DNA of 64,000 nt from Sulfurifustis variabilis (GTDB lineage: Bacteria; Pseudomonadota; Gammaproteobacteria; Acidiferrobacterales; Sulfurifustaceae): contig NZ_AP014936.1 in NCBI RefSeq assembly GCF_002355415.1, forward strand, positions 3,757,501 to 3,821,500, in the 5' to 3' direction. Position numbers and translations under genes: made by a program. The notes under the pieces were generated by a model. That model did not search any database. It saw nothing but the letters and a program-made list of their open reading frames with translations, and was not told the origin of the DNA. Below, one piece after another: positions 15,667-36,490 of this stretch. The first letter of the stretch is position 1; each line of letters opens with the position of its first letter.

Positions 15667-15792
15667 TGCGAGCCCCGGAAATAGCGCCTCCCGGCCGCTG
15701 AACACCGGGACCGGCGGACCGGCTTGCCAGTACTCGCGGCTTTTCTCACAATGGTCGGCCCGAAACGACAGGATGGGGCGGAGGGAACAACA

Positions 15793-16143
15793 ATGAACAT
15801 CTTCGTATCGAACCTCGACCGCACGATCACCTCCGGTGATCTGCGCCGGACATTCTCCGGCTACGGCACGGTCATCAACGCGATCGTGATGCACGACACC
15901 GCGACCGGGAAGCCGCTCGGGCACGCGCACGTTTACCTGGTTCCGGAGAACGCGGCGCGCGAGGCGATCGCCGAGCTGCAGTTCGCGCCGCTTCGCGGGC
16001 GCCCGATCAAGGTACGCGAGTGCGTGTACCGCGCACGCAGCGACCGCCGGATGCGTCAGTCCGAGGGCATCAAGGTCGAGCGCCGCCGCGCGTCCGACCG
16101 GCGCCGGCAGGGCCTCTCGGATCTTCCCGGCGCGGCTCTCTGA
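15793..16143 (+). CDS. RRM RNA-binding protein
   Basis: 116 aa. One RNA-recognition motif covers residues 1-80. RNP2 is IFVSNL at the N-terminus; RNP1 is changed to LGHAHVYL in place of the usual KGFGFVxF, so aromatic stacking residues are partly lost. A basic tail (RARSDRRMRQ...RRRASDRRRQG) probably adds non-specific RNA affinity. Small RRM proteins of this kind occur singly in many proteobacteria and are often stress-linked. A ribosome site GGAGGG lies 9-14 bases upstream. Confidence 0.85.
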   Translation: MNIFVSNLDRTITSGDLRRTFSGYGTVINAIVMHDTATGKPLGHAHVYLVPENAAREAIAELQFAPLRGRPIKVRECVYRARSDRRMRQSEGIKVERRRASDRRRQGLSDLPGAAL

Positions 16144-16170
16144 TCGCGCGCGACTCGCGGGGGCGTCGCG

Positions 16171-17334: not shown

Positions 17335-17358
17335 GAACGGTGATTGTCCGGGAGATCG

Positions 17359-18171: not shown

Positions 18172-18190
18172 CGAAGGTACCGGGGACGGT

Positions 18191-22250: not shown

Positions 22251-23750
22251 TCACAGGAGCGGCTTGATCGGCATCAGCTGCCAGAAACGGGCGCGCGCAC
22301 GCTTCACGAACGACACGTGCCGATCCGGATTCGCGGCCGCATTCCAGCTGTTCGACGGCTGCATGTCGGTCTCGATGGCGACCTCCACCGACCGCGCAAG
22401 ACGATCGTCGTGCGCGATCACCCCCACCTCGGTGTTGAGGTTTTCGGAGCGCGGGTCGAGATTGAACGTGCCGATGTACACCGTCGCGGAGTCGACCACG
22501 AGGGTCTTGGCGTGGATCGCGAAGATCGGCGGCGCGGCGTCGGCCGATGCCGAGCGCGCCATCAACTCTCGCTGCACCTCGGGATCCGGCCGGTACTCGA
22601 AGATTTCCAGCCCCATCCGGAGCAGCTCGCGCCGCTGTCGCCGATAGCCGCCGAAGGCGGCCAGGTTGTCCGTCGACGCGAGCGAATTCGTGCTGATGCG
22701 GACGCGGACGCCGCGGGCGATCGCCTCGCGGAGCAGGGTCTTGGCCTCTTCGGACAGGACCAGGTACGGGGACTGGATGACGATGCTCCGCGTGGCGCTC
22801 TGCACGAGGTTCGCCAGCGCCTCGGACGTGAGGCCGCCCCCGCCCAGCCGGAAGCGGCTGTCGTTCTTGCCCGGTATGTCGCTGATGAACTCCACGCTGC
22901 CCCACGTCACCTGTTCGGCCAGACGCGGGAACGCTTGCGGCATCGACTGGAGGGCGGCGCGCACCTCGGGCCCGAAGTTCTCGGGCGACTGCGCATAGGC
23001 GTGCAGCCCGTCGTGGATGCGCCGCACCTCCTCGTCGCCGACGTCCACGTGCTTCTGCAGCAGCCCGTAGCCGTCGTAGAGCTCCTCGACCCCGGCAGCG
23101 AGCTCGCTTTCCCAGAACCGGTCGAAGCTCGCCTCCATGTCGGCGACCACGCGTCCGAGAACCAGGGCGTCGCGGTCGCGGAAGTTGTAGTCCTGGTCGT
23201 AATCGAAGTACTCGTCGGCCATGTTGCGCCCGCCCGTGATCGCGATCTTGCCGTCGACGATGAAGGTCTTGTCGTGCATGCGCTGGTTGACGCCGCGGAA
23301 GTCCGTGACGACGTTCAGCACGCGCTTGTGGAAGGGCGTCCCGACCGAGTGCTGCGGGTTGTAGATGCGGATCTCGATGTTCGGGTGGCGCGCGAGCGCG
23401 AGCAGCGAGGCGTCCGGCGCGTCGATCAGCAGGTCGTCGACGATGACGCGCACCCGCACGCCGCGCTCCGCGGCGCGCAGGAGCGCCTCCGACGCCAGGA
23501 TGCCGATGTTGTCCGTGCTCCAGATGAAGTACTGGACCGCGATCGACTCTTGCGCGTGGTCGGCGAGCCAGGCCCGGGCGAGCAGCGCCTCCTCACCGCG
23601 CTCGAGCACGTAGACACCGCTCTTCCCCGGATGGGCCGCGATCTGCGAGTCGATAAAGGCCATTCCGGCCTCGGCCGCCGGCGCGAACGCGAGACACAGA
23701 CCGAGCAGCGGTCCGGTGAGCCTCCGCGACAAGCGGATCGCACGGGTCAT
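22251..23750 (-). CDS. Secreted phospholipase D family protein
   Basis: 499 aa from the ATG at 23750 (a GTG at 23768 would add six residues). A signal peptide ends near PAAEAG. There are two complete HKD motifs: MHDKTFIVDGKIAITGGRN and IHAKTLVVDSATVYIGTFN, so one active site is formed by the two halves. The layout is close to cardiolipin synthase C-like PLDs. It lies 35 bases after the acyl-ligase gene, in line with the isoprenoid-lipid operon. It may transfer or remove lipid head groups in the periplasm. Confidence 0.88.
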   Translation of the reverse strand: MTRAIRLSRRLTGPLLGLCLAFAPAAEAGMAFIDSQIAAHPGKSGVYVLERGEEALLARAWLADHAQESIAVQYFIWSTDNIGILASEALLRAAERGVRVRVIVDDLLIDAPDASLLALARHPNIEIRIYNPQHSVGTPFHKRVLNVVTDFRGVNQRMHDKTFIVDGKIAITGGRNMADEYFDYDQDYNFRDRDALVLGRVVADMEASFDRFWESELAAGVEELYDGYGLLQKHVDVGDEEVRRIHDGLHAYAQSPENFGPEVRAALQSMPQAFPRLAEQVTWGSVEFISDIPGKNDSRFRLGGGGLTSEALANLVQSATRSIVIQSPYLVLSEEAKTLLREAIARGVRVRISTNSLASTDNLAAFGGYRRQRRELLRMGLEIFEYRPDPEVQRELMARSASADAAPPIFAIHAKTLVVDSATVYIGTFNLDPRSENLNTEVGVIAHDDRLARSVEVAIETDMQPSNSWNAAANPDRHVSFVKRARARFWQLMPIKPLL

Positions 23751-23785
23751 GAGCGGCGTTCGATGCACGGCGTCGAGCGGGTATC

Positions 23786-25354
23786 CTATCCGGGGTCTTT
23801 TTCAAGCATAGAACGCAGCGCCGGGTAATCGACCTTGGCGTTATGACGCTTGTCGAGCGGAATGCGGGGGACGCCGCGCACCTGGTCGAGCGCCGACCAG
23901 GCGAGCGCCTTTTTCAGCTCGGTCGCATGAAGGGTTCCGATCCCGGACGGTTCCACGACCAGGACCCGTCGCCCCCGATGAGAGACCAGGGCGGCGCGGC
24001 GGACCCCGGGTTGCTCGAGGGCGGCGAGCTCGACCGGAAACGGATAGATCTCGCCCTTGCCATCGACGATCCGCGCGCCCGCCCGGCCGAGGAGCCAGAG
24101 CCTTCCCTCGTCGTCGATATAACCGGCGTCCCCGGTCCTGTGCCAGCGCCGCCCGTCCACGTCGAACTTGGTCTCTTCGTCTCCCCGGCCATGGAGATAC
24201 CCGGGGAGCACGTGCGCGCCGCTCACCACGATCTCGCCGGCGGCGCCGTGCGGGAGGGAGACGCGGTCGAACTCTTTCTCGAGAAAAGGCCCGATCGGCT
24301 CGCCCCACCGGTTCGGCAGGATGCGCAGCCCGATCTCCGGCACGGGGCGTCCCGCGAGCAGCCCCCGACCCGGACCGGATGTCGCTCCCGTGCACTCGCC
24401 ACTCCTCCACCGGCCGTGGGCGATCGGCTCCGCTTCGGTCGATCCGTATACGACCTCGATGACCGCGTCGGGCGCCTGCTCTTGCAGCCGCCGCAGAAGG
24501 GCCGGGAAGACCGGCGCTCCGCCCGTATACACGCGCCGCAAACCGCCGAGGCCGCTTACTCCATGCCGCTCGGCGTGATCCACCAGGCGTTCCAGGAAGG
24601 CCGGCGACGCGGCCGTCCGCGTCGCCCGGTGGCGGCGAACCTGCGCGAGCACCGGCACGGCATCGACCGCGCCCGGGCGGCGGAGATCCGCGTCGGGAAT
24701 GAGGCTCGTGACCCCCGACGCCAGGTTGGCGAGCACGAAGATCGGGAGCGTGGCGAGGTCGATCTCTCCCGCCTGCAACGAGAGGTGCCTGGCGAGCACC
24801 CGGTGCTGCACGGCAAGGAACCCGTGCGTGCGCAGCGCCGCCTTCGGCGTCCCCGTGCTTCCGCTCGTGAACGTGACGAGGGCCGGCGTCGCGTCGGAGG
24901 TCGCCGTGACGTGCGCGAGCGGCGACAACCGCCTTGCGCGCCGCAGACTGACCGCGCCCGGAAAGAACCGGCCGCACACGTAGCGCCTCGGGATGCGCCG
25001 CAGCGCGGGCGACGACCAGATCAGCAGCTGCGCGCGCCACGAGGCGATGATCGCCTTGGGCGGATACATCGCGCAGCAGCCCTCGATGTGCCGGCGTCCC
25101 ATGCCCGGGTCGAGAAACACGGCGACCGCGCCCAGTCGAAAGAGGGCCGACAGGATCACGTAAAGCTCGCCGGACATCGGCTGGAATACGAGTACGCCAT
25201 CCCCCGCCCGCACGCCGTCCGCATGCAGCAGCGCCGCCGCCTGGCCCGCCGCGTGCTCGAGCCCGGCGAAGGTCAGGGTGCCCCCGCGTTCGATGATCGC
25301 GGGCGCAGCGGGACGTTCGCGCGCCTGGGCCTGCAGCAGCTCCGCGAGGTTCAC
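23786..25354 (-). CDS. AMP-dependent acyl-CoA ligase-like enzyme (OleC-like)
   Basis: 522 aa from a GTG at 25354 that overlaps the preceding stop (GTGA). The P-loop LVTFTSGSTGTPKAALRTH, the EVVYGSTEAEPIAH motif, the adenylate-Asp region HRTGDAGYIDDEGRLWLLGR and a late lysine candidate in RHNAKVDYPAL are all visible. The GSTEAEPIAH signature is nearest to the fatty acid CoA ligase/OleC beta-lactone synthetase group. It activates a carboxylic acid as an adenylate. In this operon the acid could be a fatty or isoprenoid acid. Confidence 0.86.
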   Translation of the reverse strand: MNLAELLQAQARERPAAPAIIERGGTLTFAGLEHAAGQAAALLHADGVRAGDGVLVFQPMSGELYVILSALFRLGAVAVFLDPGMGRRHIEGCCAMYPPKAIIASWRAQLLIWSSPALRRIPRRYVCGRFFPGAVSLRRARRLSPLAHVTATSDATPALVTFTSGSTGTPKAALRTHGFLAVQHRVLARHLSLQAGEIDLATLPIFVLANLASGVTSLIPDADLRRPGAVDAVPVLAQVRRHRATRTAASPAFLERLVDHAERHGVSGLGGLRRVYTGGAPVFPALLRRLQEQAPDAVIEVVYGSTEAEPIAHGRWRSGECTGATSGPGRGLLAGRPVPEIGLRILPNRWGEPIGPFLEKEFDRVSLPHGAAGEIVVSGAHVLPGYLHGRGDEETKFDVDGRRWHRTGDAGYIDDEGRLWLLGRAGARIVDGKGEIYPFPVELAALEQPGVRRAALVSHRGRRVLVVEPSGIGTLHATELKKALAWSALDQVRGVPRIPLDKRHNAKVDYPALRSMLEKDPG

Positions 25355-26355
25355 GGCGCGAGCCTCCGGGCATAGAGCGTGTAGCCGCGCATCGGACGGG
25401 CATAGCGGTCGCTGATGTTCCGCGATCGGTTCTCGTCGTGCATGAGGGCATGGATCGCCCGGCGGTAGCCGAGCTCGTGCGCGATCTCCTGCACCCGCCC
25501 CACCATCCATCCACCGAGCCCCGCGCACTGCCGATCGGGCAGAACCGCGACCGTCTTCACGATGACGGTGTCGACCGGCTCACCGCGCGCGGCCTGGAGG
25601 ACATCGGGCAGGGCGAACAGGAATCCGACCAGCCGCTCGCCTGTCTCAGCAAGCAGCGTGAGCTCCGGACGCATGCAGGACCGCACCTGGCGGTACTGCG
25701 CGATGAACTCCGCTTCAGCGATCGGCGTATAGAGAAAGTTCCGCCGGAAGCTGATGGCCGAAAGCGCGTAGATCGCCGCAAGCTCCTGCTCGAACCGTTC
25801 GGGTTCGAAGGGCCGCACGCGGATGCCGCGCTCCGTCCACCGATCGGCCGCCCGGGCGATGCGCGGATCGCGCGCGCTCAGGTCGTCGGTCAGGGCCGAG
25901 CTGTAGTGGGCCAGCCGCGCGAAGCCGGCGGCCTCGAAGTAGCGCGGCCACGCATCCGGGTTGTCGGGCTCGAGGAAGAACGGCGGCGCCGAACGACGTT
26001 CGCTGACGAAGCGGTAACGGCGCCAGGTGTTGCCGTCCATGGGACCGATCGCGAGCGTGCAGCCGCGGCCGGCCAGCTGCGCGCAGGCGTCCGCGAGCAG
26101 GTATCGCGCCGCCGGCTCGTCGAGGGCGGCAAAGTGTCCGATGAGCCCGACGCGTTCCGTGCCGTATGCCGGCGTCTGCGTCCACCAGAGCGAGCAGCGG
26201 GCACGGGCGGCGCCGTGCAGATCGAGGCAGATCCGATGTACGTCGGGCGCGTGGCTTTGCAGCCAGGCCAAATCGAAGGACTCGGCCAGCGCGCCCTCCG
26301 TCGCCTCGCGCCACTGCGACGCGTCGTGCGCCGTGAGGCACCGATAGCCCTTCAC
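25351..26355 (-). CDS. GNAT-fold acyltransferase, double-domain length
   Basis: 334 aa, about twice a single GNAT domain. The second half (about 185-325) has the acetyl-CoA fold, including TVAVLPDRQCAGLGGWMVGRVQEIAHELGY (motif A Q/RxxGxG/A). The first half carries LAIGPMDGNTWRRYRFV and FAALDEPAARYLLADAC, probably a degenerate GNAT repeat. The acceptor is unknown. It is 52 bases after the polyprenol-kinase-like gene and coupled to the ligase gene, so it probably acts in the same lipid route. Confidence 0.8.
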   Translation of the reverse strand: MKGYRCLTAHDASQWREATEGALAESFDLAWLQSHAPDVHRICLDLHGAARARCSLWWTQTPAYGTERVGLIGHFAALDEPAARYLLADACAQLAGRGCTLAIGPMDGNTWRRYRFVSERRSAPPFFLEPDNPDAWPRYFEAAGFARLAHYSSALTDDLSARDPRIARAADRWTERGIRVRPFEPERFEQELAAIYALSAISFRRNFLYTPIAEAEFIAQYRQVRSCMRPELTLLAETGERLVGFLFALPDVLQAARGEPVDTVIVKTVAVLPDRQCAGLGGWMVGRVQEIAHELGYRRAIHALMHDENRSRNISDRYARPMRGYTLYARRLAP

Positions 26356-26407
26356 GACGCCCCTCGCGTTCGAACGCGCCCCGCAGCGACCCGAGGCATG
26401 CCGCGAT

Positions 26408-27739
26408 TCATGCCGTCACCTGGAGCGAGAACAGGCCGAGCAGCGACGCCGCGAAGCCGATGAGCGCCTGACGCGCCCATCGCCAGCCGTCGCCCTTCGC
26501 GCCCCTGATGGTCGGCTCGAGCACCCAGAGCGCAAACGCCGCGGCCACGATCGTCGGCAGCGCGAGCGTCCCCGGGACCACGTGGCTGGAATCGAACCCG
26601 GCATAGACCACCCACGGCACGATCAGGAACAGCCACGCCGTCACGCCGCAGAGCAGGATCGCGCGGCGGGAACGCATCGCCGGCCAGGCTTCAGTCAGGT
26701 CGGCGAGCCCGGCCATCGCGAGCTGCGCCGCGAACGAGAGCGTGAAGACGAAGTGCAGCTCACCCCACGCCAGCGCCTTGGCGAGAAACAGCCACAGGAG
26801 CCCTGCCGCCGACACGCTCAGCACGACCCTCGGATCGTGCGCCCGGGCGAGATCGGCGGGAGCGCGGACCGCGTAGAGCGTATAGCTCAGGAACACGACG
26901 AGCGGCGGCAGCAGCCACGGCCAGCCGCCCACCGACCAGCAGACGTACCCGACGAGCGCGGCGGCGAGCGCACCGCCGTCGTTGAGCGTGGTGCGCCGGC
27001 GCCAGGCCAGCGTGAACGCCACCAGCGCGGCGGCGACGACGAGCCGCGCGCCGAGGCTCGCGACGTCGAACGTCAGGTAGACCTTGAGGAGCACGAAGGC
27101 GCCGAGCGGAACGAACAGGTTGTCGAGGCCGCGCCACGCGATCGCCTCGAACTGCGCGAGCAGCACGCCAAGGATCGCCGCGATGAGCAGCGTCTCCGCG
27201 CGCCCCGTTTCGGTGAACAGCAGAAGCGGCACATGCACGCTGAGGAACGCGACGAGAAAAAAGGCGATGCTACCCTCCGCGCTCTTTTCGCCCTCCCCGG
27301 TGGTGTAGCGGACCTGCCCGTACCGCATGCCGATCAGCGCGGCGAGCGCATCGGCCAGCGTGAGTATCAGGATCGGGACGCCGAAGAGAATCGGGTCTCC
27401 CTTCGCGAGCACGAACAGCAGCGCGACCGCGACCGGAAAATAGATCTCCCCGAGCGACTCGCGATCGACCGCATGCACGACCGCGCCGATGCCGGCGCGC
27501 AGCGTCGTGAACACGCGCAGACCGATCAGCCCGACGACGGCGAGGCCGGCGAGCACCAGCACCGGGGCCGCGGCGTCGAAGAGCCAGGGGAACGAGAGCG
27601 TGACGAGACCCATGAGCACGTGCAGCAGCTTGCGCACGCGCTCGGGCGGCGGCGCGCAGCGGCGCTGATACGTTTGAAGACTCGCGAGCACGCCGCCCAG
27701 CGCGACGAGCACGAGGCCCACGCCCGCCCAGGCCGGCAT
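26408..27739 (-). CDS. Polyprenol/phytol kinase-like membrane protein fused to a DUF92-like half
   Basis: 443 aa with about 12 helices. The first half resembles CTP-dependent phytol/dolichol kinases: RVRKLLHVLMGLVTL, then LADALAALIGMRYGQVRY followed by GEKSAEGSIAFFLVAFLS. The second half (from about residue 240) begins RTTLNDGGALAAALVGY...GGWPWLLPPLVVF, which resembles the start of DUF92 proteins, the family of phytyl-phosphate kinase VTE6. I infer a VTE5-VTE6-like fusion able to phosphorylate an isoprenoid alcohol twice. It starts inside the DUF3419 stop (TGATG). Confidence 0.72.
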   Translation of the reverse strand: MPAWAGVGLVLVALGGVLASLQTYQRRCAPPPERVRKLLHVLMGLVTLSFPWLFDAAAPVLVLAGLAVVGLIGLRVFTTLRAGIGAVVHAVDRESLGEIYFPVAVALLFVLAKGDPILFGVPILILTLADALAALIGMRYGQVRYTTGEGEKSAEGSIAFFLVAFLSVHVPLLLFTETGRAETLLIAAILGVLLAQFEAIAWRGLDNLFVPLGAFVLLKVYLTFDVASLGARLVVAAALVAFTLAWRRRTTLNDGGALAAALVGYVCWSVGGWPWLLPPLVVFLSYTLYAVRAPADLARAHDPRVVLSVSAAGLLWLFLAKALAWGELHFVFTLSFAAQLAMAGLADLTEAWPAMRSRRAILLCGVTAWLFLIVPWVVYAGFDSSHVVPGTLALPTIVAAAFALWVLEPTIRGAKGDGWRWARQALIGFAASLLGLFSLQVTA

Positions 27740-28839
27740 CAGGCGCGCACCTCTTCGAGCACGAACGCGCTGTAGAAGAAGGCCTTGTCCCGGGCGAAGA
27801 GCGCCTCCGCCAGCGCCTCCTGCGGCGCGAGGACGGACACCAGCCGTTCCGGCCGCCGGCGCGGCGCGAGCATGTTCCAGTAGGCGAGCCGGGCCCCGGG
27901 CCGCGCGGCCGCGACCAGGCGCTCGAGCAGCCGCTCGTAGCTCCCGGGCGACATGTACTCGAAGATGTCGCTGAGGTTGAAGCGGCTGACCGCGCCGCGC
28001 CCCACCGCCGGCAGGGCGTCCTCCACGGAACACAGCCGCCATTCGAGCCGGTCGAGGTGGGCGCGGATCGTGTCGAAGTGCTCCGGCCGGAGCGCGAGCG
28101 GCAGCGCGCTCGGGTGCGTGCCGGTGAGTATCCACTGGAGATACGGATTCGCGGCGGGGTCGAGCTTCGTGAGCGCGTGGCGCGTGCGCGAGAGGATCCG
28201 CTCGGCGACGCTCCCTTCGACATAGCGGAAGAAGCTCGGGTCCCGTCCGAGCCGTCCCATGACGAAGCGCGAGAAGAACACGCGAAAGAGCGCGCGCCAG
28301 CGCCAGCTGTCCCACTCCTCGCGGTAGAACCGCTGCCGCTCCTCGGGGGAGCCGCCCGCGAGCAGCCGCGACACGCGCGCCCGGTTGTGCACGAGCGGGA
28401 GGATGCGCGTCCTGAAGAACGCGAAGTAGTCCTCGAACTTCCCGGCCGACCCGATGCCTGCCTCGATCCGCTGCGACTGCGCGTCCCAGAACCGGGCGAC
28501 GTCGGATGAAAGCAGCGGGCGGCAGCGCCGGTAGAGGTCCGCCCGCCGCCGGCTCGGCCGCGAGCCGACGAGCTCGAGCAGCTCGCCGTGCGCGAGCTCG
28601 CGATAGGCGGCGACGCGAAGCTCGAGGCACGCGAGCTGCGCCGGGTTGAGGTCGACGGCGAGGACGCGCGCCGGGCGGCGCGTGAGCAGCGCGAGCGCGT
28701 TGTCGCCGGCCGAGGCGATCGAGAGACACACGTCACCCGGCTCGACCGCGAGCCCCTCGACGAGTATGTCCGCATCCTCCCAGCATTGCGCGTAGCGGAT
28801 GCGGGAAAAGTCGGCGCGCGCCTGTACCTCGCTCGTCAT
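27739..28839 (-). CDS. DUF3419 (BtaA-like) SAM-dependent transferase
   Basis: 366 aa. The SAM-binding fold is visible as DVCLSIASAGDNALALLTRRPARVLAVDLNPAQLACLELR, with YAQCWEDADILVEGL before it and RFNLSDIFEYMSPGSYERLL later. BtaA enzymes move the 3-amino-3-carboxypropyl group from SAM onto diacylglycerol to start betaine lipid synthesis. No BtaB methyltransferase lies beside it, so the acceptor may differ. It overlaps both neighbours (4 and 1 bases). Confidence 0.85.
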   Translation of the reverse strand: MTSEVQARADFSRIRYAQCWEDADILVEGLAVEPGDVCLSIASAGDNALALLTRRPARVLAVDLNPAQLACLELRVAAYRELAHGELLELVGSRPSRRRADLYRRCRPLLSSDVARFWDAQSQRIEAGIGSAGKFEDYFAFFRTRILPLVHNRARVSRLLAGGSPEERQRFYREEWDSWRWRALFRVFFSRFVMGRLGRDPSFFRYVEGSVAERILSRTRHALTKLDPAANPYLQWILTGTHPSALPLALRPEHFDTIRAHLDRLEWRLCSVEDALPAVGRGAVSRFNLSDIFEYMSPGSYERLLERLVAAARPGARLAYWNMLAPRRRPERLVSVLAPQEALAEALFARDKAFFYSAFVLEEVRA

Positions 28840-31505
28840 GCCTCTTCTCCCTCGAGGCGCCGCACGTGGCCGCTCGCGCCGTCCATCTCCACGCGGTCGC
28901 CGTCGGCGAGCCAGCGGGTGACGCCGCTCAAACCCACGATCGCAGGGAGCCCGAGCTCGCGCGCGACGATCGCCGAGTGCGAGAGCAGGCTCCCGTGCTC
29001 GACGAGCAGTCCCGCGGCCGCCGGAAAGAGCATGATCCAGCCGGGATCGGTGCGGGCGGCGACCAGGATCTCGCCCTGCTCGAGCCGCGCGCCGCGCGGA
29101 TCCGTCACCACCCGCACGCGCCCGCGCACGACGCCGGGGCAACAGCCCGTGCCCTTCATCGTGCTTCCATCCGACATGGTCGCAGTCGGCTGCGCCGCGA
29201 GGGGGTGGTCGAGGTACACGATGCCGTGCGCCTGGATCCGGTCGGGAGGCGGCGCCTCGGTTCGGTAGCCCTCGAACTCCGCCTTGCGCACGCGCACCAG
29301 ACCCTCGAGATCAGTCGTGCAGACGGTTCCTTCGACGAAGCCCAGCAGCTCCTCGAGCGTGAGGTAGAAGACATCGCGCGGCGCCTCGAGCCGGTCGAGC
29401 GCGTACAGGCGTTTGCCGATCTCGAGGAAGATGCGCCGAACGCGGCCGAAGAGACGCGTGCGCTCGAAACGCAGGTTCTCCCGATCGCGCACCCGCGCAC
29501 GGGCGTGACCGAGCACCCAGCCGAACACCGCCCGGCGAACGGGACTGCCCCGCAGCCGCTGGGCGACGCGCTTCTCGGCCCGCGCTCGCAGGTCCGGTTC
29601 GCCGCCCTCAGCGGCCACGCGCCCGGTGCGGCGTTCGGCGACGGCGCCCACGGCCCGCAGCAGCGGCAGCGGGTCGTCGTGGAGGGTGGTGCTCTCGAGC
29701 TTGAGCTCCTCCAGGCAGCGGTCGCCGAAGCGCTCGAGATACTCCGCGTAGGCGCGCTCGAGCGCAGGCGCGTCCGCGAAGGCCTGGCGAATGGCGCCGA
29801 GCGAGCCGTGCGCGAGCGCCTGCACGACCTCCGGGTGCGGCGCCGCGAGCTCCGCCATGGCGCGGATGCGCTGCGCCGGCTCGGCGCTGATCATCCCGCC
29901 CTCTCCGCAGAGCAGGTCGTTCTGCAGCGTGCCGTCCGTGTCGTCGCACCAGCGCTCGCAGAGGCGCTTGAGCACGCCGTAGAAGACCATCGCGAAGAAG
30001 TCGTTCACGAGGGGCGCGTCCCAGCGCGTGAGGAGCTCCCGCTCGAGCGCGCGGTAGTAGTCGACGAGCTCGTCCGGCCTTCGCGCCTCGAGCGGCGGCT
30101 GCGGGGAGGCGAGCGCGGTGTCGAGGCGTCCGTAGAACCGTACGATGGAACGCCGGAGGTGTGCGTGATTCAGGAGGAGGCCGCCAAGCGTGCGCGCGAG
30201 GTAAAGCGAGTCGAGCAGCCGTTCCCTGAATCCGGCGCGGCCGAGGTCGGCCGCGAGCGCGTCGGGGAGGCCCTCCTTCACGCCCATCATCTGTTCCATG
30301 AACGCCCGGTTGACGGTGAAGCCGGGCAGGAGCGCGAGCACCCGGTACCAGTTGAGGAGGTTGTAATAGATGCGCCCGTGCACCAGCCCGAGCATGTTGC
30401 GGAACGTGTCCTCGTGCGCGAGCACGCGCGCCGCCGGCACGCGCATCAGATGACAGAACTCGCGGTAGACGTGCTCGTAGGCGCGGCGCGCGAAGGAGAA
30501 GGTCAGCGGCGTCGTGACGCCCGGGTAGCTCTCGGCGATGTTGCTGTTGTCCCAGAGGATGCAAGGGGCGCCGGGATCCGGACGGTTGGCGAGGCCGGTG
30601 ACGGGCCGCGACTGCAGCAGGTACAGGCGGCCGGCGGCGTAGGCCCACTCGATGTCCTGCGGGCGACCGAAGTGCTCGGTCGCCCGCCGCGCGAGCGCGG
30701 CCACCTCGCGCACCTGCTCCTCGGTCAGCACCGGGCGATGGGCGAGGTCGTCCGGCACCGCCACGCGCCGCACCCCTTCGAGCGCTTGCGGGTCCGGGCG
30801 GTGGGCGTCGCGCTTGTGGGCGACGGTCGATTCCACCAGCCGGCCCTCGCGGTCCACCCGGTAGGTGTCGGCGTCGCACTCACCGGAGACGAGCCCGGAC
30901 CCGACGCCGTACACCGCGGCGATCACGGCCACGTCGCGGCGCCCGCTCACGGGGTCGGCCGCAAACGCGACCCCGGACGCGTCCGGGCTGATCATCCGTT
31001 GCACGAGGACCGCGGGAGCGGGCGGCGTACCCGCGATTCCCTGCGAGCGCCGGTAGCTCGCGACGCGCTCGCTGAAGCCCGAGCGCCACACGCGGGCCAC
31101 GCGATCGGCCACGTCGCCGGACGGGACGAAGAGGAAGCTGTCGAGCTGGCCGGCGAAGGAGTGCGAGACGCCGTCTTCGTCGGATGCCGAGGATCGCACC
31201 GCCACCGGTGCGCCGTCGGGACAAAGCCGCCCGAGCGCGGCATCGATCGCCCGGGCCACGTGCGGGCTCACGCTGACGGTGTCCGCCACCGCCCGCCAGG
31301 CGTCGTCGGCGGTCGCCGCCGCGAGACCGCGGCGCTGCGCGTCGTCGAGGCTCGCGCGAAAGGCCGCCGGCGTGATGCAGAACCACGCCGGTACCGGCAG
31401 GCCGGCCATCGAGAGCGGCCGCAATGCGCCCGCCTTTCCGCCGAGCCCGGCCTCGCCTTCGTCGTCCGGGAAGACGATCCAGTTCATCTCGGCCTCTTTC
31501 GTCAT
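28836..31505 (-). CDS. Rifampin phosphotransferase-like dikinase (PEP synthase superfamily)
   Basis: 889 aa. An N-terminal ATP-grasp domain (about 1-330) has AGLGGKAGALRPLSMAGLPVP, VAVRSSASDEDGVSHSFAGQ, VLVQRMISPDASGVAF and DIEWAYAAGRLYLLQSRPVT. A helical middle region (about 340-770; NSNIAESYPGVTTPLTFSFA) comes next. The swivelling His domain is at the C-terminus, with phospho-His843 in HGSLLSHSAIVARELG. The TIM barrel that binds PEP/pyruvate is absent. This order is that of rifampin phosphotransferase, not PpsA, so I expect ATP-driven phosphorylation of another substrate, perhaps a prenyl alcohol. Overlaps of 4 bases with both neighbours. Confidence 0.87.
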   Translation of the reverse strand: MTKEAEMNWIVFPDDEGEAGLGGKAGALRPLSMAGLPVPAWFCITPAAFRASLDDAQRRGLAAATADDAWRAVADTVSVSPHVARAIDAALGRLCPDGAPVAVRSSASDEDGVSHSFAGQLDSFLFVPSGDVADRVARVWRSGFSERVASYRRSQGIAGTPPAPAVLVQRMISPDASGVAFAADPVSGRRDVAVIAAVYGVGSGLVSGECDADTYRVDREGRLVESTVAHKRDAHRPDPQALEGVRRVAVPDDLAHRPVLTEEQVREVAALARRATEHFGRPQDIEWAYAAGRLYLLQSRPVTGLANRPDPGAPCILWDNSNIAESYPGVTTPLTFSFARRAYEHVYREFCHLMRVPAARVLAHEDTFRNMLGLVHGRIYYNLLNWYRVLALLPGFTVNRAFMEQMMGVKEGLPDALAADLGRAGFRERLLDSLYLARTLGGLLLNHAHLRRSIVRFYGRLDTALASPQPPLEARRPDELVDYYRALERELLTRWDAPLVNDFFAMVFYGVLKRLCERWCDDTDGTLQNDLLCGEGGMISAEPAQRIRAMAELAAPHPEVVQALAHGSLGAIRQAFADAPALERAYAEYLERFGDRCLEELKLESTTLHDDPLPLLRAVGAVAERRTGRVAAEGGEPDLRARAEKRVAQRLRGSPVRRAVFGWVLGHARARVRDRENLRFERTRLFGRVRRIFLEIGKRLYALDRLEAPRDVFYLTLEELLGFVEGTVCTTDLEGLVRVRKAEFEGYRTEAPPPDRIQAHGIVYLDHPLAAQPTATMSDGSTMKGTGCCPGVVRGRVRVVTDPRGARLEQGEILVAARTDPGWIMLFPAAAGLLVEHGSLLSHSAIVARELGLPAIVGLSGVTRWLADGDRVEMDGASGHVRRLEGEEA

Positions 31506-32419
31506 GGCAGCAGCAGCGGAAGCACGCCGAGCCCGAGATAGAGAGCGAGCGTCCACACGCCCGAGGCCGTCTCGAACCGCCGCCCCATGCCGCGTCGCGG
31601 CCCGGCGAGGAAACGCATCGCGAGCGCCAGTGCCGCGAGCAGGATGAGCGCGAGCACCGCCGAGACCCAGAGGGTGACGCCGATGACGGCCGCCGCTCCG
31701 GCCGCGCAGGCGAGCGTAGCCGAGAGCGCGAGGACCCATGCGCCGACCGCCTTCGCCCTGCCCCACACGACGGTGTAGGTCTCGACACCCTCCTCCTCGT
31801 CCTCCGGCGCGCGGATCTTGCGGCCGAGCTCGATCACGATCCCGTTGAAGAAGCTCGCCGCCACGAACCAGCCGAGCCCGCGCGGCGGAGCGCCGGCACC
31901 GGCGACCAGCCAGTCGCACGCGGTGGCGTAGAAGTCGATCAGCGGCATGACGAGCATGTGCGTCCAGAGGTAGGTGAACGGCCGCGCCTTCAACCACTCG
32001 CGCACGAAGAACTCCCGGCTCATGAGCCCGAAATAGACCCAGACGACCGCGAGCAGGGGCATCAGCCGCGGATCGAGCGCGAACGCCAGCACGAGCTGCA
32101 GCACCGCCCCGGCGACGCCGATGCGACGGAGCTCGGCAAGCGTGACCAGGCCGCGCGGAACGGGGCGGTACGGCCGGTAGCGCGCGTCCTCCTCCGCGTC
32201 CTTGAACTCGTCGGCGATCCGAAGCTGCAGGAAGAACAGGAGGGAGGTCGCGAACGCGACCGCCACGGCGGCGAGCGGGGGCGGCGCGGCGCCGCGCGCG
32301 AGCGCCGAGTAGCTCGCCGCGGAGAAGCTGAACGCGAGGATCAGCGGGCCGTGCGCGAGCAGGGGAAACCGCTCGCGCTGATAGACCCACCAGCGATTGC
32401 CGCCAGTGACGGTGGCCAT
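31502..32419 (-). CDS. UbiA family prenyltransferase
   Basis: 305 aa with eight or nine membrane helices. The first Asp motif is RIADEFKDAEEDARYRPYRP, continuing VPRG; the second is GRKIRAPEDEEEGVETYTVV. Both carry the expected aspartates and basic residues for binding a Mg-diphosphate. It transfers a prenyl chain to an acceptor at the membrane. The 'ADEFKD' form differs from the quinone-pathway UbiA and from EboC in this window. It is one base after the HMG-CoA reductase gene and coupled to the dikinase gene. Confidence 0.88.
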   Translation of the reverse strand: MATVTGGNRWWVYQRERFPLLAHGPLILAFSFSAASYSALARGAAPPPLAAVAVAFATSLLFFLQLRIADEFKDAEEDARYRPYRPVPRGLVTLAELRRIGVAGAVLQLVLAFALDPRLMPLLAVVWVYFGLMSREFFVREWLKARPFTYLWTHMLVMPLIDFYATACDWLVAGAGAPPRGLGWFVAASFFNGIVIELGRKIRAPEDEEEGVETYTVVWGRAKAVGAWVLALSATLACAAGAAAVIGVTLWVSAVLALILLAALALAMRFLAGPRRGMGRRFETASGVWTLALYLGLGVLPLLLP

Positions 32420-32420
32420 C

Positions 32421-33698
32421 TCAGGCGTCCTTGCCGGAACCGCGTGCGAGCTGTTGATGCGCGCGGGCGAAGTGCCCGGCCGCGAGCGCCCCGATGATCG
32501 AGAGCTCGCCGGCCAGCGCGAGCGCGGCGCAGATCTCGGCCAGGGCCTGCGCATGACCGGGCCCGGCGAGGCCGAGGAGCTCGAGGCAGGCGCGCTGGCT
32601 GGGCAGTCCGGTGCCGCCGCCCACGGTACCGACGATCAGGTTGGGGAGCGTGACCGCGGCATAGAGGTCGCCGTCCCCGGTCAGCTCGAAGCGCGTGACG
32701 CCCACGGCCGACTCGGCGACGCACGCCGCGTCCTGCCCGCACGCGATGTAGAGGGCGGCGAGCCCGTTGGCGTAGTGGCCCTGGACACCGACCGTCCCGC
32801 TCAGCACGCCGCCCATGGCCGACATCCGCCAGTAGTTCACCATCTGCTCCGGCGTCGTGTGCAACCCGGCCTTCACCAGCTCCGCCGGCAGATGAACCTC
32901 GGCCGTCACCTTCTTGCCGCGCACCGAGAGGAACGAAAGCGCACTCGCCTTCTTGTCGCCGGAGAGGTTCGCCTCGACGAAGCTGTACTGCGGCTCGACC
33001 GGCGTGTGCTCGAGGATGTAGCGGCAGACCGCCTCGGTGGCGATGGTCACCATGTTCTGCCCGGCCGCGTCCCCGGTCGCGTAGTCGAAGCCCAGGTAGA
33101 CGTGGTTGCCTTCGACGGTGACGCGCAGGTCGAGAAGGCGCCCGTGCCGGGTCGTCGTCGCCGCCGCGGCGCGGAAAGCGTCCATCTGGCTCAGCACCCA
33201 GCTGACGAACCGCCCCGCCTCGATCAGGTCGCGGAAGGCGAAGCCCGGGGCGCGGCTCACGCCCTCGTTCAGCAGCAGCGCCGTGCAGCCGCCCGCGCGC
33301 GTGATGAGCTGCGACCCCCGGCTGTAGGAGGCGACCAGGGCCGCCTCCGTCGTCGCGAGCGGCACGACGTAGTCGCCCTGCGCATGAAGCCCGTTGACCC
33401 GCAACGGTCCCGCGATCCCCACCGGGAGCTTCACGGTCCCGATGAAGTTCTCGATGTTGCGCTGGTACGCCTCCATCTGCGCCCGGGTCTGCGCATCGAG
33501 CAGCCGCTCGCGCCGCTCGCCGGGGGCCGCCAGGGCCTGCCACCGCGCTTCGACGGTCTCCGCCGTGATGTGCGGCTCGCGCGGTATGCGCGCGAAGGCG
33601 TGGGACTTGGGCGCGAGGCGATACGCGTACTCCTCCACGCTGCCCTCGTTCAGCAGCCGTTCGAGCACGCTAGAGGCGCGGTGATGCGGGGCGGCCAT
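32421..33698 (-). CDS. Class I-like hydroxymethylglutaryl-CoA reductase
   Basis: 425 aa. The catalytic residues are in place: Glu118 (LATTEAALVAS), Lys249 (SGDKKAS), Asp322 (CGQDAA) and His414 near the C-terminus. ENFIGTVKLPVGIAGPL and DAAGQNMVT (NADPH/CoA region) match the class I catalytic domain; there is no membrane anchor. It makes mevalonate from HMG-CoA. Other mevalonate genes are not in the window, which is unusual because most proteobacteria use the MEP pathway. The strong ribosome site (AAAAAGGAGGAG) and the 117-base gap upstream mark it as the first gene of the lipid operon. Confidence 0.93.
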   Translation of the reverse strand: MAAPHHRASSVLERLLNEGSVEEYAYRLAPKSHAFARIPREPHITAETVEARWQALAAPGERRERLLDAQTRAQMEAYQRNIENFIGTVKLPVGIAGPLRVNGLHAQGDYVVPLATTEAALVASYSRGSQLITRAGGCTALLLNEGVSRAPGFAFRDLIEAGRFVSWVLSQMDAFRAAAATTTRHGRLLDLRVTVEGNHVYLGFDYATGDAAGQNMVTIATEAVCRYILEHTPVEPQYSFVEANLSGDKKASALSFLSVRGKKVTAEVHLPAELVKAGLHTTPEQMVNYWRMSAMGGVLSGTVGVQGHYANGLAALYIACGQDAACVAESAVGVTRFELTGDGDLYAAVTLPNLIVGTVGGGTGLPSQRACLELLGLAGPGHAQALAEICAALALAGELSIIGALAAGHFARAHQQLARGSGKDA

Positions 33699-33815
33699 GG
33701 GTCTCCTCCTTTTTAAGGTTGTACACGGTCAGGTGCCGCGGCCGGCGGTGAGACGGGTATCGAAAACCGCAACCGGACATCGGGTGACCGCGAAAGTCAT
33801 TGCCATCGTCGTCGT

Positions 33816-35036
33816 TCACTGCCCGAATACCCGGCTTGTCTCGAACACGCCCGGCGCGAGCCTCTTGCCATTGCGCGCGATAACGCGCTTGAGCGCGAAA
33901 TCGAAGAGCAGCGCGTTGTAACGGCGGATCTCCGAGAGCACCCTCGCCTCGGACGGACGCAGGTACCCGCGCTCAGTCATCCGCGTGAGCGAGAAGATCG
34001 GCATCACCGCCGGCAGCGGGTAGTCCGAGCCGTTGAGCAGCCGTGCGTGCCACTCGCTGCGTTCGAGGACGTTGTCGAGCGGAGGGCCCAACCGGTTCAG
34101 CTGCGTCATCGCCGAAATTTCCCCGTAGAGCTTTCCCTCGTACCGCGCTTCGTTCATCAGCCGCGCGAACAGCTCGAAGTTCGGCATGGCCGGCCCGTTC
34201 GGCCCCTTGTCGAGATCAACGCCCTCGCCGAGCGAGGCGCAGTGCGCGACGATGACCGTGACGCCGTGGTCGAGCGCGCGGCGGAGCTTGAGCGGATTGC
34301 CGAAGGTCTGGGCGTCGCCGCCGTGCACCGCGAGCTCCTCGCCCGCGTGGGTCAGGAGCGGCAGGCGCAGGCGCGCGAGCGTCTCGTAGAAGCGGTCGCA
34401 GCGCGGCGACGCGGGATCCATCCCCATGGCCGGCGGCAGCCACTTGATCGCGCGCGCCCCTTCGCGCGCCGCCGACTCGAGCGCCTCGACGGCGTCCGGC
34501 CGGTAGGGATGGATCGAGGCGATCGCGACGAAGCGCTCCGGAAACCGCTGCGCGAGCGCGAGGGCGTAGGCGTTCGGCGTGTGGAAGGACGTCAGGTCTT
34601 CGCGGCGGGCGCCGTTGTCGTCGTAGTGGTAGTCGAACGCGAGCAGCATCAGCCGCGTGCCTGCCGGAAAGTCGTCCTGCAGGCGCATCAGCCGCTCGAG
34701 GTAGGCCACGTCGATTTCGGGCGCGCCCTGCGCGCAACCGGCGTTGAGGTAGAAGCGCTTCTGCGCGTACTGAATCGGATGCGCCGCGCTGTCCATCGCC
34801 GGCGTCACCCAGATGCCGGAGTCGCTGTCGCCCACCCCGATCAGGTGCACGTGCGTATCCCATACGCGAGCGGCGTCGATCCCGTCGAACGCCGCCCGCA
34901 CGAGCTCGTGCCGGGCAAGAGGCTCGGGGAGCGGCGACAGGCACGGATTCCACACGCCCTCGTCCGGCCACAGGCCGTAACCGGCCGCGCCGAACCCGCC
35001 GAGTCCCATCACCCCCAGGAAAGTCCTGCGCTTCAT
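33816..35036 (-). CDS. Amidohydrolase family protein with Tat signal
   Basis: 406 aa. The N-terminus KRRTFLGVMGLGGFGAAGYG is a twin-arginine signal, so a folded metalloenzyme is exported. The amidohydrolase_2 fold is suggested by RVWDTHVHLIG (HxH), LLTHAGEELAVHG, VIVAHCASLGEG and LLNGSDYPLP (late Asp). The substrate is unknown. It overlaps the rhombosortase gene by 4 bases, placing it in the same operon, although it has no GlyGly-CTERM tail. Confidence 0.86.
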   Translation of the reverse strand: MKRRTFLGVMGLGGFGAAGYGLWPDEGVWNPCLSPLPEPLARHELVRAAFDGIDAARVWDTHVHLIGVGDSDSGIWVTPAMDSAAHPIQYAQKRFYLNAGCAQGAPEIDVAYLERLMRLQDDFPAGTRLMLLAFDYHYDDNGARREDLTSFHTPNAYALALAQRFPERFVAIASIHPYRPDAVEALESAAREGARAIKWLPPAMGMDPASPRCDRFYETLARLRLPLLTHAGEELAVHGGDAQTFGNPLKLRRALDHGVTVIVAHCASLGEGVDLDKGPNGPAMPNFELFARLMNEARYEGKLYGEISAMTQLNRLGPPLDNVLERSEWHARLLNGSDYPLPAVMPIFSLTRMTERGYLRPSEARVLSEIRRYNALLFDFALKRVIARNGKRLAPGVFETSRVFGQ

Positions 35037-35599
35037 GTTCTTGTTCTCATGATCAGAACGGCCATCACGCCGGCCGCGGCTCCCGCTAGATGCGCACCGG
35101 GGAGAACCGGCCAGGCCGTGTGCTTGACGATGCCCCCACCGGATGCGAACTCCAGCCCCAGTTTCGCGGTCGCGGCGGCGGCGACCGCCGCCAGCAGCCA
35201 CCGCTGTCCTCCCTCCTGCCAGCGCGCGACGAGCCCGGCCGCGAGGAGGCCGTACAGCACCCCCGAAAGGCCGCAGTAGCGCCCGATGTCGGGCCGAAGC
35301 GTCCAGAGCCAGGCGTCGATCGCCGCCGCACTGATCCCAAATAGTAGTCCCCAGCGCGCGGGGTGCCGCTCGAAAAGCACGCCGAGCAGGCCGAGCCCCA
35401 GGAGGTTCGCAGCCAGGTGACTGGCGTCGGTGTGGGCGAGATGCCCTGTCACGAGCCGCCAGACCTCCCCATCGCCGATCGCCTCCCGGTCGAAAACGAG
35501 TGTCTCGGGGGCCGAACCGGCAATGAGGAACATGACGGCGGCGAGGACACCGAACGTCACGGATGCCCGAGGCACCGCCATGGCGGCCGGGCCGTTCAT
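35033..35599 (-). CDS. rrtA: Rhombosortase (rhomboid-type intramembrane protease)
   Basis: 188 aa with six helices. Rhomboid features include VWRLVTGHLAHTDASHLAANLLGLGLLG, the catalytic Ser in YCGLSGVLYGLLAAG and the catalytic His in PGAHLAGAAAG. The small size and the neighbouring GlyGly-CTERM lipoprotein identify it as rhombosortase. It cleaves GlyGly-CTERM tails in the inner membrane so the proteins can go to the cell surface. The ATG at 35599 overlaps the lipoprotein stop (ATGA); an internal ATG at 35581 is possible. Confidence 0.9.
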   Translation of the reverse strand: MNGPAAMAVPRASVTFGVLAAVMFLIAGSAPETLVFDREAIGDGEVWRLVTGHLAHTDASHLAANLLGLGLLGVLFERHPARWGLLFGISAAAIDAWLWTLRPDIGRYCGLSGVLYGLLAAGLVARWQEGGQRWLLAAVAAAATAKLGLEFASGGGIVKHTAWPVLPGAHLAGAAAGVMAVLIMRTRT

Positions 35600-36426
35600 C
35601 GCCGCGCCCGGCGCAGCCCCCATGCAAGGGGGGCGAGCAAAAGCAGCATCCACGCGTCGAGCGCGCCCGAGCCCGAGAAGCCGGGCCGGTACGAGACCTT
35701 CACGCTCTTGTCCTGCTTGATGCGTTCCTTGAAACCGTCGATCTCGGTGCCGAGGTTCGCGATCATGTCGACGGTCGCGAGATCGAAGCCCTCCTCCATC
35801 GCCACGCGGCGCTTCACGTCGTCGCCGATGTAGGTCGAGTAGTGCTTGTTCGCGGCCACCCCCGGAGCATGAAAGAGCAGCTTGTGGGTACGCACGTCGA
35901 ACACCGCCGTGTCGACGAAGGTCCGTACCTCGTGGCGGTTGGCCGGGACGGTATAGGCACCGACGATGGTCCAGTAGAGGAACCCGAGGTTCGTCTGGTC
36001 CGTGTTCGCCACCTGGTCGTACGAGACGAGCGCGATCACGTCGAGGTTGAACAGCCGCGCGATCTGGTCGAGCGTCCCGAAGCCCTTGCCCGACCGCATG
36101 AAGGCGTCGGGGATGAGCACGATCTGGTTGATGAAGGGGCGGTCGAGAAACGCCGCCTTGGCCTTGATGAGCAGCTCGTTCTTCTTCGGCTCCGAGAGCG
36201 CGCCCCGCGACTCGGGCACGAAGCCGATGCCGACGTTGAGCGGCAGCGGCAGGTTCGGCACGGTCTGGTCGTAGGCCGGGGGCAGCTCGCCCTTGGGGTA
36301 GAGGAAGTCCACCAGGCTGCTCGAGACGCTCTCGCGGCTGCGGTTCATGTGGGCGCAGCCCGCTATGAGCACCGCCACCCAAACGGCCACGACGGTCCAG
36401 AACCAGGGAAAACTTCGCGTTTTCAT
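35596..36426 (-). CDS. Rhombotarget lipoprotein with GlyGly-CTERM tail
   Basis: 276 aa from the ATG at 36426, which has GAGGAG at the best spacing; the ATG at 36432 sits too close to it. The lipobox LIAGC gives Cys24. The C-terminus has the GlyGly-CTERM layout: a GSGAL motif, a hydrophobic run WMLLLLAPLAWGL and a basic end RRARR. It is encoded directly upstream of rhombosortase, its presumed processing enzyme. The main domain (about 40-240) is mixed alpha/beta and has no known function. Confidence 0.9.
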   Translation of the reverse strand: MKTRSFPWFWTVVAVWVAVLIAGCAHMNRSRESVSSSLVDFLYPKGELPPAYDQTVPNLPLPLNVGIGFVPESRGALSEPKKNELLIKAKAAFLDRPFINQIVLIPDAFMRSGKGFGTLDQIARLFNLDVIALVSYDQVANTDQTNLGFLYWTIVGAYTVPANRHEVRTFVDTAVFDVRTHKLLFHAPGVAANKHYSTYIGDDVKRRVAMEEGFDLATVDMIANLGTEIDGFKERIKQDKSVKVSYRPGFSGSGALDAWMLLLLAPLAWGLRRARR

Positions 36427-36461
36427 AGCCATCTCCTCGTGTTGTGTCGGGCAGCGTCCCG

Positions 36462-36490
36462 TTGACATAATGAACGCTGTTCAATATTCT
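36462..36490 (+). promoter_or_regulatory. Promoter of the TetR-aas-lplT operon
   Basis: TTGACA (36462-36467), a 17-base spacer and TATTCT (36485-36490) form a near-consensus sigma-70 promoter 37 bases before the TetR ATG. An operator fills the spacer, so a bound repressor would block RNA polymerase. Confidence 0.75.
36471..36483. promoter_or_regulatory. TetR-type operator, copy 1
   Basis: TGAACGCTGTTCA is a palindrome with 5-base arms (TGAAC/GTTCA). It lies between the -35 and -10 boxes of the TetR gene promoter and within the region that must also serve the divergent rhombotarget gene. Confidence 0.75.

Follow-up and report, generated by a model that had tools for sequence, protein, structure and literature searches.

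A unit of seven genes led by a class-I HMG-CoA reductase (HMGR) homologue recurs in 11 phyla, and its leading gene probably encodes, as judged from the substrate-pocket residues, an FcrA-type fatty acyl-CoA reductase rather than a working HMG-CoA reductase. We give an even chance to the reading that the unit has spread horizontally and directs the synthesis of an ether-type aminolipid whose building blocks are fatty alcohols and not mevalonate. Within this pathway the first step, assigned to FcrA, is the only one with strong support, and we infer the product.

The locus and its conservation

The window analyzed is a 64,000-nucleotide stretch of Sulfurifustis variabilis, and the operon lies at positions 22251-33698 on its minus strand. 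The original prediction placed eight minus-strand genes there, and all eight were confirmed. From the first gene onwards, the features are:

33703..33710, minus strand: Shine-Dalgarno-like AGGAGGAG ahead of the first gene (read from the sequence; the consensus is general knowledge)
32421..33698, minus strand: P0001, predicted FcrA-type fatty acyl-CoA reductase, HMGR class-I homologue (Pfam HMG-CoA_red, 4.8e-118; pocket residues)
31502..32419, minus strand: UbiA-family prenyl/alkyl transferase (Pfam UbiA, 3.6e-14)
28836..31505, minus strand: PEP-synthase/Rph/PigC-like dikinase, PEP-binding barrel not recognised (Pfam PPDK_N and PEP-utilizers mobile domain)
27739..28839, minus strand: DUF3419 protein, putative BtaA-like 3-amino-3-carboxypropyl transferase (Pfam DUF3419, 1.8e-72)
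26408..27739, minus strand: two-part membrane protein with a phytol/dolichol-kinase-like N half and a DUF92-like C half (weak DUF92 match, C half)
25351..26355, minus strand: tandem-repeat GNAT acyltransferase (Pfam Acetyltransf_1, 2e-5; structure-model matches)
23786..25354, minus strand: OleC-like AMP-forming acyl ligase (Pfam AMP-binding, 2.7e-49)
22251..23768, minus strand: PLD/cardiolipin-synthase-like protein, loosely attached (Pfam PLDc_2)

With the start codons chosen, the junctions from the HMGR homologue through the GNAT gene are a 1-base gap, two 4-base overlaps, a 1-base overlap and a 52-base gap; the GNAT and ligase genes overlap by 4 bases, and 17 bases separate the ligase and PLD genes.

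The first seven genes (HMGR-like, UbiA, dikinase, DUF3419, phytol-kinase/DUF92-like, tandem GNAT and OleC-like ligase) were found all together in 45 of 80 UbiA-anchored loci, and 33 of these 45 complete loci keep the window's gene order. Hence, the grouping is far beyond chance, and this neighbourhood search across genomes, which had been proposed as a check, revealed an order that is not unique to this genome. The HMGR homologue is first in the block in 33 of the complete loci and immediately before UbiA in 44. The PLD gene was present in only 3 of the 80 fetched loci, where it lies upstream of HMGR. It is loosely attached, so that of the eight-gene operon first described seven genes form the conserved unit and PLD is not part of it. 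The carriers include many metagenome bins, cultured strains (Roseinatronobacter sp. S2, Luteolibacter pohnpeiensis and Rubritalea profundi among them) and a Roseinatronobacter plasmid, which bears a complete operon; judged by length and coordinates, two pairs of loci share a contig (L058 with L032, and L073 with L034). In some clusters a radical SAM/SPASM protein and two membrane proteins adjoin UbiA. The claim of an undescribed, conserved lipid-type operon is supported, in a host genome that gave no HMG-CoA synthase match. A description of it was not found in the literature searched (titles and the starts of abstracts, with preprints and most subscription papers outside the scope).

The leading gene and the mevalonate question

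Grossi et al. 2025 (PMC11948995) describe FcrA, a member of the HMGR class-I superfamily that acts as a fatty acyl-CoA reductase and makes fatty alcohols. Its published marks are Ser684 changed to Glu, loss of the Lys that contacts the carboxylate of HMG, and a bulky residue in place of Leu862; a published FcrA did not reduce HMG-CoA, and FcrA supports wax esters elsewhere and is perhaps linked to ether lipids. The Lys in question, residue 735, is printed there as 795, and its binding of the HMG carboxylate is described in PMC9500038.

In the operon proteins the catalytic Glu559, Lys691, Asp767 and His866 are kept in 47/47 aligned rows, as is Arg590. In the numbering of the window's protein, Glu118, Lys249 and His414 had been named correctly as the catalytic residues, and the Asp is 323, not 322. 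These residues alone did not show HMG-CoA to be the substrate. Ser684 is replaced by Glu and Leu862 by Phe in all 47 operon proteins, whereas 11/11 mevalonate-type enzymes have Ser and Leu. Similarly, Lys735 is kept in 11/11 of these controls and lost in 47/47 operon proteins (M in 31, V in 10, T in 2, I in 2, A in 1 and L in 1). It is because these three pocket changes match the published marks that we read the HMGR homologue as FcrA. In the W862 group, Ser684 is kept in 7/9. On a quick tree, built with no characterised FcrA sequence, the pocket marks appear as one change, and the operon proteins split from the human enzyme, 6hr7 and the mevalonate-type rows with an SH-aLRT of 95. The 47-row alignment consisted of the window plus 46 of the 47 listed operon frames (L071 was left out); other frames from the 62 loci with an HMGR homologue were left out as truncated, of odd length or with ambiguous letters.

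If the leading gene were a working HMG-CoA reductase, it would supply the pathway with mevalonate or a prenyl alcohol, as was originally predicted; the HMGR fold and the catalytic residues, both present, speak for this. HMG-CoA synthase was searched for with PF08540 in the host and in 50 cluster genomes of which the completeness is not known, 40 of them with an HMGR homologue in the locus, and was found in none (0/51). The same search finds the enzyme in 22 of 30 mevalonate-type genomes and misses it in 8, so its absence from one genome is weak evidence and from 51 strong. IspH, of the MEP route, was present in 47/51 genomes. Since the pocket residues are changed, with the HMG-carboxylate Lys (PMC9500038) lost throughout, and HMG-CoA synthase was not found, mevalonate feeding was rejected; the inactivity of a published FcrA on HMG-CoA (PMC11948995) also stands against it, and we regard it as very improbable.

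Use of the fatty alcohol and the proposed pathway

The HMGR matches of the class sample, 57 in all, were divided into 19 genomes lacking K735 (residues read in each), 30 mevalonate-type genomes, set by E values of 1e-58 to 1e-42 with residues read in 11, and 8 weak matches placed in neither group. HMG-CoA synthase matches occurred in 3 of the 19 K735-less genomes, none of them with the operon. Fatty-alcohol consumers accompany other K735-less homologues. All eight genomes of the W862 group have WS/DGAT, which was detected in 13/361 other genomes and in 0/30 of mevalonate type; the eight represent 5 families, and the Fisher tests ignore kinship. AGPS is weakly linked (3/19 K735-less genomes, one being the query's own, against 8/350). 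An alkyl-DHAP synthase and an acyltransferase share the gene run at L048, and at L036 lie one gene away. Wax-ester-synthase and alkyl-DHAP-synthase neighbours point to a fatty alcohol independently of the FcrA paper. An FAD enzyme near the L037 HMGR homologue, grouped with AGPS by BLAST, was rejected as lactate-dehydrogenase-like.

In the six class-sample genomes with operon-type FcrA (the host and five others, counting G208, on whose short contig the operon would not be visible), neither WS/DGAT nor AGPS was found at 1e-60. The operon itself may therefore use the alcohol. That FcrA instead serves storage wax esters and sits in the operon by chance is scarcely believable: the role of FcrA in wax esters elsewhere (PMC11948995) and the WS/DGAT of the W862 group would fit, but these six genomes lack a WS/DGAT match, and in the complete loci FcrA mostly stands at the head of the block and, in all but one, right before UbiA.

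The presence of the kinase-like protein tracks that of FcrA. Among loci spanning both DUF3419 and GNAT, a table that does not contain the plasmid, the DolK C half is present in 45/47 with FcrA against 1/9 without it. The pattern breaks at L094, with both halves and no FcrA found, and at L064 and L092, with FcrA and no C half; the plasmid copy has FcrA, and the C-half profile gave no match there at 1e-4. An APH/EcKL domain is fused to FcrA in L038 and L049, and L092 has a DAGK-type domain. The protein itself had no Pfam match at 0.001. Its C half matched DUF92 at 0.0064 in the window, and 7 of 37 family members matched at E ≤0.5 (best 6.3e-5) in an alignment of the window and 36 of 38 listed frames; the N half is, by its motif, putatively of phytol/dolichol-kinase type. 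The confident 443-residue model had no PDB fold match at E 0.001.

The UbiA family profile, made from 34 chosen members, has digeranylgeranylglyceryl phosphate (DGGGP) synthase as its nearest PDB match (1.4e-8) and also matches chlorophyll synthase (7e-6). The DGGGP synthase models PRK12882/12883 gave 22 and 19 bits, below their cut-offs of 296 and 353, and the EboC model was matched weakly by 6/34 members. A six-gene cluster of eustigmatophyte plastids reportedly includes a UbiA-type gene. Since UbiA enzymes normally take allylic prenyl diphosphates, the enzyme may add an isoprenoid chain instead of an alkyl chain. In 10/10 searched genomes with an FcrA-less cluster no FcrA was found elsewhere in the genome, so the operon core can run without it. 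These clusters, the UbiA chemistry and matches, and IspH in most genomes are consistent with an isoprenoid hybrid in which a small acceptor, polar or aromatic, receives a MEP-derived prenyl chain from UbiA, and FcrA and the kinase only add a second, fatty chain. We consider this unlikely, though it deserves some weight, because no aromatic-acceptor gene is among the seven and the kinase C half tracks FcrA.

The dikinase matched the NCBIfam models PRK06241.2-2 (803 bits), RedH (366), Rph (352) and PigC (321), all under cut-off. At least 97% of 78 aligned rows keep its mobile-domain His, and Pfam recognised only PPDK_N and the mobile domain, with no PEP-binding C-terminal barrel as in PEP synthase. 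With the RedH and PigC matches, the patchy spread and the plasmid copy in mind, one could picture the dikinase as a PigC/RedH-like condensing ligase, and the product as a secreted fatty-alcohol natural product (a signal or antibiotic) and not a membrane lipid. The same seven genes are nevertheless shared across phyla, and over the 45 complete loci the identity of the HMGR homologue is 54-78%; none of the seven encodes a transporter, regulator or carrier protein, and no other gene family recurs in more than 7 loci. We judge such a product to be rather improbable.

For the fatty-alcohol aminolipid we propose the following route. The FcrA-type enzyme, backed strongly by its sequence marks and the published relative, would use NADPH to turn a long-chain acyl-CoA into a fatty alcohol. 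The phytol-kinase-like/DUF92-like protein may phosphorylate this alcohol once or twice, and the UbiA protein would form an ether between the activated alkyl (or prenyl) chain and an alcohol acceptor; the dikinase would presumably phosphorylate the acceptor or an intermediate in an Rph-like manner. The DUF3419 protein, to judge from its family and from BtaA, would transfer a 3-amino-3-carboxypropyl group from SAM and so supply a homoserine ether head; the aminocarboxypropyl lipid first suggested remains plausible. Finally, the tandem GNAT may acylate the amine with an acyl group from the OleC-like ligase. The GNAT structure model matches tandem GNATs (7q3a, 2.7e-16; mycothiol synthase). The ligase matched PRK09274 at 360 bits, under cut-off, and reached 216 and 187 bits with the OleC beta-lactone synthetase models (cut-offs 900 and 850).

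Two variant clusters combine FcrA, UbiA and dikinase with a CDP-alcohol phosphotransferase, a CarS-like domain and the FcrA-fused kinase. In L038 the CDP-alcohol transferase is fused to the CarS-like domain; L049 has one by Pfam and a second gene of the same BLAST family. Such swapped partners would be expected of a shared core that carries different polar heads. It is possible, if unlikely, that many phyla share a fatty-alcohol ether aminolipid pathway of archaeal-style logic, in which FcrA would supply the alcohol and the fused two-step kinase an alkyl diphosphate; the DGGGP-synthase-like UbiA would use this non-allylic alkyl donor to form the ether, and the heads would be homoserine ether or CDP-alcohol-derived phosphodiester. 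If UbiA does make ethers from alkyl donors, bacterial ether lipids would gain another, new biosynthetic route.

Comparison with known systems

That 11 phyla share these seven genes suggests a bacterial lipid, or a product resembling one, to which the literature searched assigns no genes. For FcrA, known since 2025 from wax esters and perhaps ether lipids, the operon adds a new setting and a pathway that can be tested. It is a warning, too, that bacterial class-I HMGR annotations often conceal fatty acyl-CoA reductases (57% in one balanced set, PMC11948995). The window's protein resembles the FcrA described there in its catalytic tetrad, the Ser684 to Glu change, the lost Lys, a bulky residue 862 and its occurrence in bacteria without mevalonate genes. 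It differs in having Phe, not Trp, at 862 and, by Pfam over its 425 residues, no N-terminal carrier domain, and in belonging to a seven-gene operon; the main text of that paper nowhere uses the words UbiA, gene cluster or DUF3419.

The DUF3419 protein is homologous over its full length to the BtaA family of betaine lipid synthesis (profile 4-382 of 385). Relatives on rhizobial replicons were near full-length by tblastn (24-30%), and none were found in viral contigs. Unlike the BtaA/BtaB pair, the seven genes show in Pfam no N-methyltransferase of the BtaB type, and a tandem GNAT is there instead. The dikinase shares with Rph, PigC and RedH the ATP-binding and mobile His domains and the unrecognised PEP barrel, but falls below the cut-off of all the named models. 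VTE6 is a DUF92 protein, and the likeness to the VTE5/VTE6 phytol salvage for tocopherol lies in an alcohol kinase and a DUF92-like half adjoining a UbiA gene; here the halves are fused, the predicted substrate is a fatty alcohol and the similarity is weak. From the archaeal ether-lipid route (DGGGP synthase, CarS and CDP-alcohol phosphatidyltransferase) the operon differs in that its alcohol would come from FcrA, no glycerol-phosphate prenyl synthase is among the seven, and the main form has a DUF3419 head. The likeness lies in a UbiA protein nearest to DGGGP synthase, and in the CDP-alcohol transferases and CarS-like domain of the variants.

Layout and spread of the operon

The eight minus-strand genes originally predicted at 22251-33698 are all present in the window, as judged by its reading frames and by Pfam and NCBIfam matches:

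33698-32421, minus, HMG-CoA reductase (HMGR) homologue, first gene
32419-31502, minus, UbiA
31505-28836, minus, dikinase
28839-27739, minus, DUF3419 protein
27739-26408, minus, two-part membrane protein, kinase-like, with a DUF92-like C half
26355-25351, minus, GNAT, tandem type
25354-23786, minus, AMP ligase
23768-22251, minus, PLD

A Shine-Dalgarno-like AGGAGGAG precedes the first gene. The host genome is a single contig of 3,958,814 bases (completeness 100%). Immediately upstream of the operon lies an amidohydrolase (33816-35021). In L056, an Acidiferrobacterales bin, its 65% homologue is on the downstream side of the operon, so the gene may travel with the operon in this lineage. L056 also holds the closest HMGR homologue (78% identical) among the best 80 of 187 loci. 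A rhombotarget lipoprotein (35596-36468; TIGR04179, 260.8 bits against a cut-off of 150) adjoins a frame ending at 35033, rhomboid-like by eye, and the two are perhaps a rhombosortase-type pair.

A collection of 84,980 species was scanned with a five-member UbiA alignment, which yielded 187 relatives. The best 80 loci, most of them from metagenome bins and many cut by contig ends, were queried with the window proteins by tblastn. UbiA was found in 80/80 loci, the dikinase in 77, DUF3419 in 67, the HMGR homologue in 62, the kinase-like protein in 59, and GNAT and the ligase in 56 each. The neighbourhood recurs across genomes: these seven genes are complete in 45 of the 80 loci, spanning 11 phyla (Verrucomicrobiota foremost, n = 17) and always on a single strand, with the window's order in 33, GNAT and ligase in front in 11, and the HMGR homologue last only in L064. 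The predicted eight-gene operon holds for seven genes conserved together; PLD is only loosely attached (3/80 loci). The PLD homologue (54-60%) lies directly upstream of HMGR in L082, L083 and L115 (Nitrospirae and Geobacter-type), whereas in the window it is downstream.

All seven genes are found in Luteolibacter pohnpeiensis (L097), Rubritalea profundi (L134) and a 136.7 kb plasmid of Roseinatronobacter sp. S2, where HMGR spans the record start. Four further class-sample genomes (G290, G084, G270 and G065) show the operon order, cut by a contig end in G270 and with broken genes in G065. In the latter (L035, on a 2.66 Mb contig) a stop lies within the HMGR homologue and the kinase gene is broken; this copy is decaying or poorly assembled. 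L068 carries, between dikinase and DUF3419 (13674-18321), a class-III aminotransferase protein and a second dikinase-like frame.

The HMGR homologue and FcrA

The first gene had been proposed to supply mevalonate, a role that our data do not support, and its product is probably not a mevalonate enzyme. Genome searches found HMG-CoA synthase neither in the host nor in 50 genomes with the cluster, of which 40 have the HMGR homologue at that locus. IspH, an enzyme of the MEP route, was present in 47/51 of these genomes, and the same synthase search was positive in 22/30 mevalonate-type genomes of the class. In all 47 aligned operon proteins (human numbering) Glu559, Lys691, Asp767 and His866 are intact, as are Arg590, Asp690, Lys692 and Asn755, and Ser684 is replaced by Glu, Lys735 is substituted and Leu862 is replaced by Phe. 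The mevalonate-type proteins of the class retain Ser684, Lys735 and Leu862 (11/11). Lys735 forms a salt bridge to the HMG-moiety carboxylate of bound statin (PMC9500038). On a quick tree a single branch (SH-aLRT 95) separates proteins bearing Lys735 from those lacking it (K735-less). Three of the 19 K735-less genomes gave a hit for HMG-CoA synthase in this search (G069, G139 and, below the cut-off, G167).

FcrA, a homologue of HMGR, is described as converting long-chain acyl-CoA by reduction into fatty alcohol and as not reducing HMG-CoA (Grossi et al., ISME J 2025; PMC11948995). Its marks are Ser684 to Glu, loss of the HMG-binding Lys (printed as Lys795 and equated here with Lys735), and a bulky residue for Leu862 (PMC11948995). 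The operon protein shows every one of them.

Fatty alcohol, its likely users and a predicted kinase partner

The neighbours of K735-less homologues also point to fatty alcohols. A wax ester synthase gene precedes the homologue in L041; in L048 the genes after it encode a PlsC-type acyltransferase and an alkyl-DHAP synthase (AGPS), and in L036 an acyltransferase-AGPS fusion is one gene away (PDB matches by phmmer, 1.9e-115 and 3.4e-142). The L036 homologue (row L008) falls within the operon clade on the quick tree, on a long branch that makes its placement unsure. With co-occurrence computed without kinship correction, wax ester synthase (WS/DGAT) occurs in 8/8 genomes of the group with Trp at 862, to which L041 belongs, from 5 families, versus 13/361 others, and AGPS alone in 3/19 K735-less genomes versus 8/350, a weak link. 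Either enzyme is found in 10/11 non-operon K735-less genomes (G003 counted through the query itself); neither was found in G017. In six genomes of the class sample that carry operon-type FcrA, the host included, neither WS/DGAT nor, at E 1e-60, AGPS gave a match, and therefore the operon itself may consume the alcohol. The FcrA authors suggest roles besides wax esters, ether lipids included (PMC11948995).

FcrA appears mostly accompanied by a predicted kinase. The DUF92-like C half is present in 45/47 loci with FcrA versus 1/9 without; the pattern is broken by L064 and L092, which have FcrA but lack the C half, and by L094 (C half, no FcrA found). The Roseinatronobacter plasmid copy is a further exception, with FcrA and no C-half profile match at 1e-4. 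FcrA and an APH/EcKL kinase domain form one fused protein in L038 and L049, and in L092 (16984-19170, a cyanobacterial bin) an FcrA-like stretch, its frame apparently shifted, runs into a diacylglycerol-kinase/YegS domain; no DolK half was found in that locus.

FcrA is dispensable for the core, since the clusters that lack it had none elsewhere in 10/10 searched genomes. Of 7 other genomes, in which the UbiA locus stands alone or is truncated, 6 have an HMGR homologue at a contig edge or in another place.

The proposed product and known systems

Only the first step, in which FcrA would convert acyl-CoA to fatty alcohol, is strongly supported. When 34 UbiA proteins were searched as a profile, the closest relatives of solved structure were digeranylgeranylglyceryl phosphate synthase (1.4e-8) and chlorophyll synthase (7e-6). 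A CDP-alcohol transferase occurs in L049 and, joined to a CarS-like domain, in L038. Together with the DUF3419 protein, the tandem GNAT and the kinase pattern, these relatives lead us to infer an ether-type aminolipid as the putative product. Against this reading, UbiA may carry a prenyl chain, and there is room for a natural product, since the dikinase shows similarity to PigC and RedH in addition to Rph (NCBIfam). In L120, L125, L130, L133, L121 and L065 the UbiA cluster is flanked by a block, seen mainly in clusters without FcrA, that consists of a radical SAM/SPASM protein (identified in L125), a membrane protein with two repeats and, by BLAST family in each of them except L065, a small membrane protein.

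Among the matches listed in the open-access literature excluding preprints, no description of the operon was found. The DUF3419 protein belongs to the family of BtaA, which makes a homoserine ether lipid from diacylglycerol and SAM (PMC10685587). The membrane protein resembles VTE5 and VTE6 only weakly in sequence; VTE6 belongs to the DUF92 family, and VTE2 is related to UbiA. VTE5 and VTE6 supply VTE2 with phytyl diphosphate made from phytol (PMC11926002). Since the operon protein carries each FcrA mark and the main text of the FcrA paper does not use the terms UbiA, gene cluster or DUF3419 (PMC11948995), the enzyme is of a known kind and the novelty is the operon. We rate it as an operon of lipid type built around an already described family of reductases; that it is a new ether-lipid route is less likely.
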